Of a DNA stretch of 64,000 nucleotides, positions 22,374-22,725 are shown in pieces. The stretch lies in assembly GCF_001610955.1 (NCBI RefSeq), contig NZ_CP014335.1, positions 2,923,001-2,987,000 of the forward strand. Reading direction: 5' to 3'. The translations under genes and the position numbers were made by a program. The notes beneath the pieces were generated by a model. The model was not told where the DNA came from. It ran no database searches and saw nothing but the letters and a program-made list of their open reading frames with translations. The stretch comes from Geobacillus thermoleovorans (GTDB taxonomy: Bacteria; Bacillota; Bacilli; Bacillales; Anoxybacillaceae). How positions within the stretch are numbered: position 1 is the first letter of the stretch; each line of letters opens with the position of its first letter.

Positions 22374-22661
22374 TTATTTTCCTCCTTGCGATTGGATTGT
22401 ATCAGCAAGGGAGGTATGAAGGAGCGCCTGGCCTTCCTCCGTTAACCGCATGCCCGACACATCGGCGGAAAGCAAGTTTTGTCCTTTCAAAAATTCTGTT
22501 TCCGACCGGAGCACCCGCTCACTCATGCCGAGGCTCGCCGCCAGCGCCCGCCGCCCGATCGGCGCCATAAGCGAAATGGAGTGCAAAATTTGATATCGTT
22601 TTTGCATAACGTCAAGCAAGTCAGGCAATAATTTTTTTTGTGCCTCCAATAACGGCTGCAT
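22374..22661 (-). CDS. cggR: CggR reduced to its DNA-binding domain
   Basis: 95 residues from ATG 22661 (AAAGGA upstream). [26 protein letters not shown] and the HTH ([22 protein letters not shown], then LTEEGQALL) match the N-terminal 90-odd residues of CggR, the central glycolytic genes regulator. B. subtilis CggR is about 340 residues; its sugar-phosphate-binding domain, which senses fructose-1,6-bisphosphate and drives tetramerisation, is absent here. The gene stops two bases before the gap start, so the loss is a clean deletion that kept the gap ribosome-binding site. Promoter and operator upstream are intact. Whether the 95-residue product still represses, or can no longer be induced, is open. 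Confidence 0.88.
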
Positions 22662-22689
22662 GGATCCTTTCTCCTCGATTGAATATAGG

Positions 22690-22725
22690 GACATCTTATG
22701 TCCCGGTATGACATATTATGTCCCG
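22690..22725 (-). promoter_or_regulatory. CggR operator (two half-sites)
   Basis: On the minus strand the sequence is CGGGAC-N6-TGTC-N4-CGGGAC-N6-TGTC without a mismatch, the operator architecture known from B. subtilis gapA. It lies between the promoter and the cggR start. Confidence 0.9.

Follow-up and report, generated by a model that had tools for sequence, protein, structure and literature searches.

Why does the gap gene of Geobacillus thermoleovorans lie behind a regulator gene cut back to its DNA-binding part, while the operator of that regulator is perfect? A first-pass annotation of this locus had described a gene of about 95 residues in front of gap that matches the helix-turn-helix domain of the repressor CggR, the loss of the sugar-phosphate sensing domain, a perfect operator and a good TTGAAC-17-TATAAT promoter. 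Our analysis of the window, a stretch of 64,000 nucleotides to which positions refer unless a contig is named, agrees on all of these points. Between 22788 and 22369, read on the minus strand, promoter, operator, Shine–Dalgarno sequence, ATG, 95 codons, TAA, two bases and gap follow one another (Table 1), with the TAA at 22374–22376 and the gap ATG at 22369–22371. Read from the ATG at 22661 the frame has 95 amino acids; the open reading frame listing gives a 106-residue frame from an upstream ATG. Pfam matched CggR_N (PF21715; 4.2e-30) to residues 29–93 of the 106-residue frame, covering positions 1–65 of the 71 in the model. Only 83 of the 95 residues derive from CggR; the final 12 come from the old cggR–gap spacer. 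The operator pattern CGGGAC-N6-TGTC-N4-CGGGAC-N6-TGTC, which corresponds to the B. subtilis CggR consensus, has its sole genome match here at up to three mismatches, and a reversed-pattern control gave 0 matches. All five frames of the operon are open in the window, and the last four listed in Table 1 are, judging by sequence and order, presumably pgk, tpi, pgm and eno, respectively. The cggR promoter and the sigma-54 gene are separated by a glutaredoxin-like gene (PF05768; 22785–23030). Elsewhere in the genome there is a second full-length GAPDH-I gene (C1:2641171–2642136), possibly the gluconeogenic gapB.

Table 1. Positions in the window of the features of the truncated cggR gene, its control region and the downstream operon.
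Feature	Position	Strand	Basis or remark
Promoter TTGAAC (22783–22788), 17-bp spacer, TATAAT (22760–22765)	22760..22788	-	read from sequence
CggR operator CGGGACATAATATGTCATACCGGGACATAAGATGTC, both half-sites exact to consensus, same as the G013 (G. zalihae) allele	22690..22725	-	pattern search and comparison
Shine–Dalgarno GAGGAG of the truncated cggR frame	22671..22676	-	read from sequence
Truncated cggR frame	22374..22661	-	95 aa: CggR residues 1–83 plus 12 new residues
Deletion junction, 773 bp missing relative to G003	22413..22414	-	left end after codon 83 (...LLHT); right end one base beyond the old cggR stop
Left-over 3' arm of the old hairpin plus one C from the left side, CCTCCCTTGC	22405..22414	-	predicted to pair with the gap Shine–Dalgarno
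gap Shine–Dalgarno region GCAAGGAGG, within the truncated cggR frame	22381..22389	-	folding
gap, 335 aa, glyceraldehyde-3-phosphate dehydrogenase, starting two bases past the truncated cggR stop	21364..22371	-	open reading frame and Pfam
Remaining glycolytic operon, open frames of 394, 253, 511 and 444 aa	16372..21241	-	open reading frame listing

The hallmark of the SorC/CggR family, according to PMC11229326, is a C-terminal sugar-phosphate effector domain. Pfam matched no effector-domain family in the truncated frame, which thus lacks this hallmark, and a search of the frame against NCBIfam returned no family at E up to 1. Profile searches of the whole 3.5-Mb genome found a single CggR_N match and no PF04198 effector domain (0 of 1 genome), with the domain of the B. 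subtilis positive control detected; no second full-length CggR or SorC protein was found in the genome. With the effector domain absent genome-wide and ligand sensing located there in B. subtilis (PMC11229326), the earlier suggestion that FBP-responsive control through CggR has been lost is supported at the sequence level.

To place the truncation, we compared the locus with a genus set of 14 genomes, of which G003 is taken as G. proteiniphilus 1017 and G013 as G. zalihae NBRC 101842, and G006, G008 and G011 are further members. The deletion length of 773 bp obtained by alignment with G003 also follows from the distances to gap in G006, G008 and G011, and the right end falls inside an old hairpin, GGGGAG-TAAT-CTCCC. 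Deletion between direct repeats was rejected, as no bases are common to both ends at the junction. On the promoter side, a stretch of 687 bp that includes the operator is 99.85% identical to G013 with one mismatch, and on the gap side about 114 bp are 98–99% identical to G003, G006, G008 and G011 and 80% identical to G013. One extra G is present at 22372–22373, before the gap ATG, relative to G003, G006, G008 and G011, and is either real or a sequencing slip. In 250-bp windows from 16000 to 32500, the nearest relative changes every few hundred bases (mostly among G003, G006, G008, G011 and G013, with G007 near 26.0–26.7 kb), a fine mosaic that suggests frequent recombination around cggR. The zalihae-like tract ends at the junction, so joint import and deletion is possible; because haplotypes switch every few hundred bases in this region, the coincidence is weak. 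Judged from these comparisons, the 773-bp deletion is recent and confined, within the genus set, to the present genome.

We see a slim chance that the deletion is an assembly artefact, or a change within the sequenced culture that the strain overall does not carry. The contig is untrimmed: C1:1–27729 corresponds to 3422900–3450609 (27.7 kb), and since these duplicated copies differ by 2 substitutions and 79 gap columns, indel errors do exist near the contig ends. The extra G sits just before the gap ATG, and the comparison covers one strain of the species. However, the first 40 differing columns consist of 38 isolated single-base gaps and one two-base gap, none of them large, and the interior shows 1 gap column in 6514 relative to G003. 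A clean 773-bp deletion with clean flanks is not the usual type of error, the operon frames are open, the junction lies in unique sequence and gap is still translatable.

Whether the truncation is general in Geobacillus had been left undecided by the first-pass annotation, and the survey of relatives rejects this. CggR_N is present in all 14 genomes of the genus set, in which the PF04198 survey was made, and PF04198 in 13, the sole miss being the present genome; the other 13 genomes all encode both domains of a full-length CggR, in open frames of 343–371 codons from stop to stop. Across the family set, CggR_N was found in 41 of 41 genomes, and the open frame around the best match of each genome ran to 327 codons or more, the exceptions being the present genome (113) and G038 (221). 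In G038, a member of another genus of the family, cggR is split by a frameshift (L049:2340–3358) into a 217-aa frame with the remainder in the next frame, which reflects either an error or another loss of CggR. A sample of the order contained CggR_N in 295 of 299 genomes, with open frames of at least 340 codons among the matches listed (the present genome not among them). A search for short proteins (about 58–185 aa by a length rule) returned five relatives of CggR, none with the tail seen in the window. Because all five continue past residue 83 in native-looking CggR sequence, we took them to be pieces of whole genes and rejected the existence of a widespread CggR consisting of the DNA-binding domain only. 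These surveys indicate that the truncated state belongs to one lineage and not to Geobacillus at large. Titles and abstract openings in the CggR literature (Geobacillus, truncation, pseudogene, evolution, SorC DNA-binding domain and RNase Y processing) contained no report of a natural CggR of this kind, and passages of PMC4039378 and PMC1866360 said nothing on loss of CggR.

The perfect operator had been taken to suggest that something still binds it, an argument that the comparison does not support. The same 36 bp are found in the G013 allele, which has a full-length CggR, and operators in the other 13 members of the genus set show 0–3 mismatches to the consensus, with none in three of them. 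At one change per 687 bp, about 0.05 changes would be expected in 36 bp without selection. Since the loss is too young for decay and the G013 operator is identical, the intact operator is not proof of binding; it fits a left-over of a young loss and not a sign of use. More generally, after a young loss an intact operator should not be taken to mean that its regulator is still active.

What the remnant protein could do was judged from its structure. Its best match among solved structures was 7OYK (E 1.7e-28, aligned to residues 10–100 of the 106-residue frame), the isolated DNA-binding domain of B. subtilis CggR on a half-operator. The remnant corresponds to residues 1–83 of that fragment, which by our count spans residues 1–91, so that the two have nearly the same extent; unlike the fragment, which was made in the laboratory for crystallisation, it is encoded in a genome and has 12 other residues in place of the last 8. 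The base-contacting arginines R37, R38, R49 and R52 are kept and are invariant in 21 aligned sequences. An AlphaFold2 model from 21 sequences had a pLDDT of 87.9, with block means of 90–97 over residues 11–80 and values of 50–65 in the tail, the latter poorly supported because most aligned relatives are cut at residue 83. Foldseek placed 8R3G and 7OYK at the top (query TM 0.76 and 0.74, rmsd 5.6 Å, 62–63% identity). The new tail (22374–22412), made by chance, partly aligns with the helix that natively ends the B. subtilis domain and is predicted to be helical with low confidence.

According to PMC11229326, the four arginines contact guanines in B. subtilis CggR, the DNA-binding domains form a dimer, mainly through a swap of helix α1, and the effector domains sense the ligand, join two dimers on DNA and add avidity. 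With FBP or DHAP the complex falls to dimers, on the stronger right half-site or off the DNA, and transcription is derepressed in vitro; in older solution studies cited there, FBP-bound CggR is still loosely on DNA as a tetramer. The present gene resembles B. subtilis CggR in its place before gap, its operator consensus and its CggR_N winged helix with the four arginines, and differs from it in lacking the effector domain, the linker, the end of the last helix of the DNA-binding domain, the FBP/DHAP site and the tetramer interface. Because the effector domain is absent, a DNA tetramer releasable by FBP or DHAP is not expected here.

Binding of the remnant to the operator is plausible, and the short protein might even be a working, FBP-blind mini-repressor, a winged-helix dimer on one or both half-operators that would hold the operon at a fixed, lowered level and, produced alongside GapA, would keep its own operon in check. 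The match to 7OYK, the conserved arginines, the confident core of the model and the dimer that the DNA-binding domains make in CggR (PMC11229326) all speak for this. We nevertheless consider it unlikely, if with an appreciable chance of being correct: loss of the effector domains removes avidity between half-sites, and in B. subtilis, dimers may remain on the right half-site with FBP even though transcription is derepressed (PMC11229326). The final 8 residues of the crystallised fragment have given way to others and the model of the tail has thin support, a strong FBP-blind repressor of gap would be expected to slow growth on sugar, and conservation of the operator is no evidence here. By analogy with B. 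subtilis, a dimer of DNA-binding domains alone would more likely be a weak roadblock than a repressor.

RNA signals were lost with the deletion as well: the 5' arm of the hairpin, the cggR stop and a region that resembles the RNase Y site of B. subtilis. In B. subtilis, RNase Y cuts the cggR–gapA message near the cggR 3' end, which destabilises the cggR part, stabilises the gapA part and lowers CggR (PMC10470536). Stabilisation of the gapA part is ascribed to a hairpin directly after the cut, and a purine-rich stretch, AGACGAAGGAG, lies upstream of it (PMC11780869). A look-alike, matched by eye, is found in the deleted end of Geobacillus cggR, where G003 reads GGACGAAGGAG. A hairpin with AGGG/CCC-type arms at the cggR stop is present in 36 of 39 relatives, including 13 of 13 other Geobacillus genomes, and absent from the window. 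Its cells are paired in 81.1% of cases versus 77.5% in shuffles (reached in 1 of 500), with a covariation score of 0.166 versus 0.133 (5 of 500); pairs changed on both sides number 2 versus 1.9 (455 of 500 shuffles), and further pair types are matched by 334 of 500. Covariation is modest, and conservation is mainly of sequence. The genome encodes RNase Y (TIGR03319, 823.6 bits) and a PSP1 protein of the RicT type (PF04468, 131.1 bits, matched twice because the contig ends overlap). With a regulator before gap and both of these proteins encoded, the locus resembles the RNase Y-processed cggR–gapA transcript of B. subtilis and gapR–gapA of S. aureus; unlike that transcript, it has lost the cggR 3' end and the 5' arm of the stabilising hairpin. 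Among the features of an RNase Y-matured operon, the window has no hairpin at the cggR stop, and the cggR 3'-end cleavage region lies in the deleted 773 bp. This reading assumes that the B. subtilis rules for RNase Y hold in Geobacillus. A laboratory counterpart is the pBsCgg reporter, in which, according to PMC11321564, most codons of cggR are deleted and a short peptide is left (106 codons there); that construct keeps the RNase Y site, whereas the natural deletion removes it.

The gap Shine–Dalgarno is kept, as had been noted, but it has lost the hairpin in front of it and is now predicted to be paired. A 55-nt stretch with CCTCCCTTGC and GCAAGGAGG folds at −14 kcal/mol, and 5 of 200 shuffles fold as well. 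We computed the cost of opening the Shine–Dalgarno for the window and 39 relatives in seven contexts at 37 and 65 °C (14 settings). In 13 of these settings the window had the highest cost of the 40 genomes; at 37 °C with 50 nt upstream, it came eighth. Over the 14 settings its cost ran from 2.6 to 11.6 kcal/mol and so varied with the stretch folded, which makes the size of the effect uncertain. In the five longer contexts (at least 70 nt upstream), the window had values of 5.4–8.7 kcal/mol at 37 °C against 5.1–6.2 for the top relative, with a thin margin at 90 nt (5.35 versus 5.29), and of 3.4–4.6 kcal/mol at 65 °C against 2.0–2.2; with 150 nt upstream at 65 °C, the window required 4.07 kcal/mol and the 39 relatives at most 2.18. 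Simulation of 480 deletions in G003 at 65 °C gave median costs of 2.7–3.5 for right ends at −48 to −38 and 0.9–1.5 elsewhere, and 17 of the 480 lay at or above the 4.18 of the window. On this basis, the position at which the deletion ended is enough to account for the new pairing.

The short frame contains both arms of the predicted pairing and ends two bases before gap, whose translation may be coupled to it. One could propose that the frame persists because it is translated, serving as a leader that exposes the gap ribosome-binding site, and that its amino-acid sequence is irrelevant. The position of its stop, its span over both arms and a Shine–Dalgarno that costs more to open than in any of the 39 relatives in 13 of 14 settings would agree with such a role, to which we give a very slim chance: chance alone yields this arrangement in one of three frames, and a deletion with 1 change in 687 bp beside it is too young to show selection. 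The idea is also compatible with, and not opposed to, the explanation that we prefer.

That preferred explanation, which we hold to be probable though well short of certain, is that a recent 773-bp deletion abolished CggR function and freed gap from FBP control, with the operator as a left-over and gap translated largely by way of the short frame. CggR is then most likely a functional null, gap is most likely no longer controlled by FBP, and the central glycolysis operon has probably lost its usual sugar-responsive switch. In the sequence, everything from CggR residue 84 through to one base after the stop codon is missing. Lacking effector domains, the protein should be able neither to bridge two dimers over the operator nor to sense FBP or DHAP, so that repression would be gone or much weakened and transcription uncoupled from glycolytic flux. 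The cggR–gap message would no longer be cut or protected by the hairpin. Ribosomes arriving from the short frame would open the pairing over the gap Shine–Dalgarno and restart two bases on, which would be the main route to gap translation, and without CggR, GapA would be made during gluconeogenesis too.

Several observations weigh against this explanation. The regions used to dimerise and to contact a half-site survive in the remnant, and the older studies cited in PMC11229326 have FBP-bound CggR loosely on DNA as a tetramer. The Shine–Dalgarno effect depends in size on the stretch folded and was equalled or exceeded in the 17 simulated deletions; the RNase Y rules of B. subtilis are assumed and the site was matched by eye; and the junction has no common bases to explain how the deletion arose. 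It is also conceivable, if distinctly improbable, that one deletion created both a free-standing, FBP-blind CggR DNA-binding domain that continues to occupy its operator and a leader whose translation exposes the gap ribosome-binding site. If so, GapA output would be set by a fixed-ratio, self-limiting circuit and not by sugar phosphate and RNA processing.

CggR is near-universal in the order and a well-studied FBP sensor of glycolysis. Its apparent recent loss in this lineage would amount to a natural knock-out, one that may show how much a thermophile gains from FBP sensing and from the RNase Y step.
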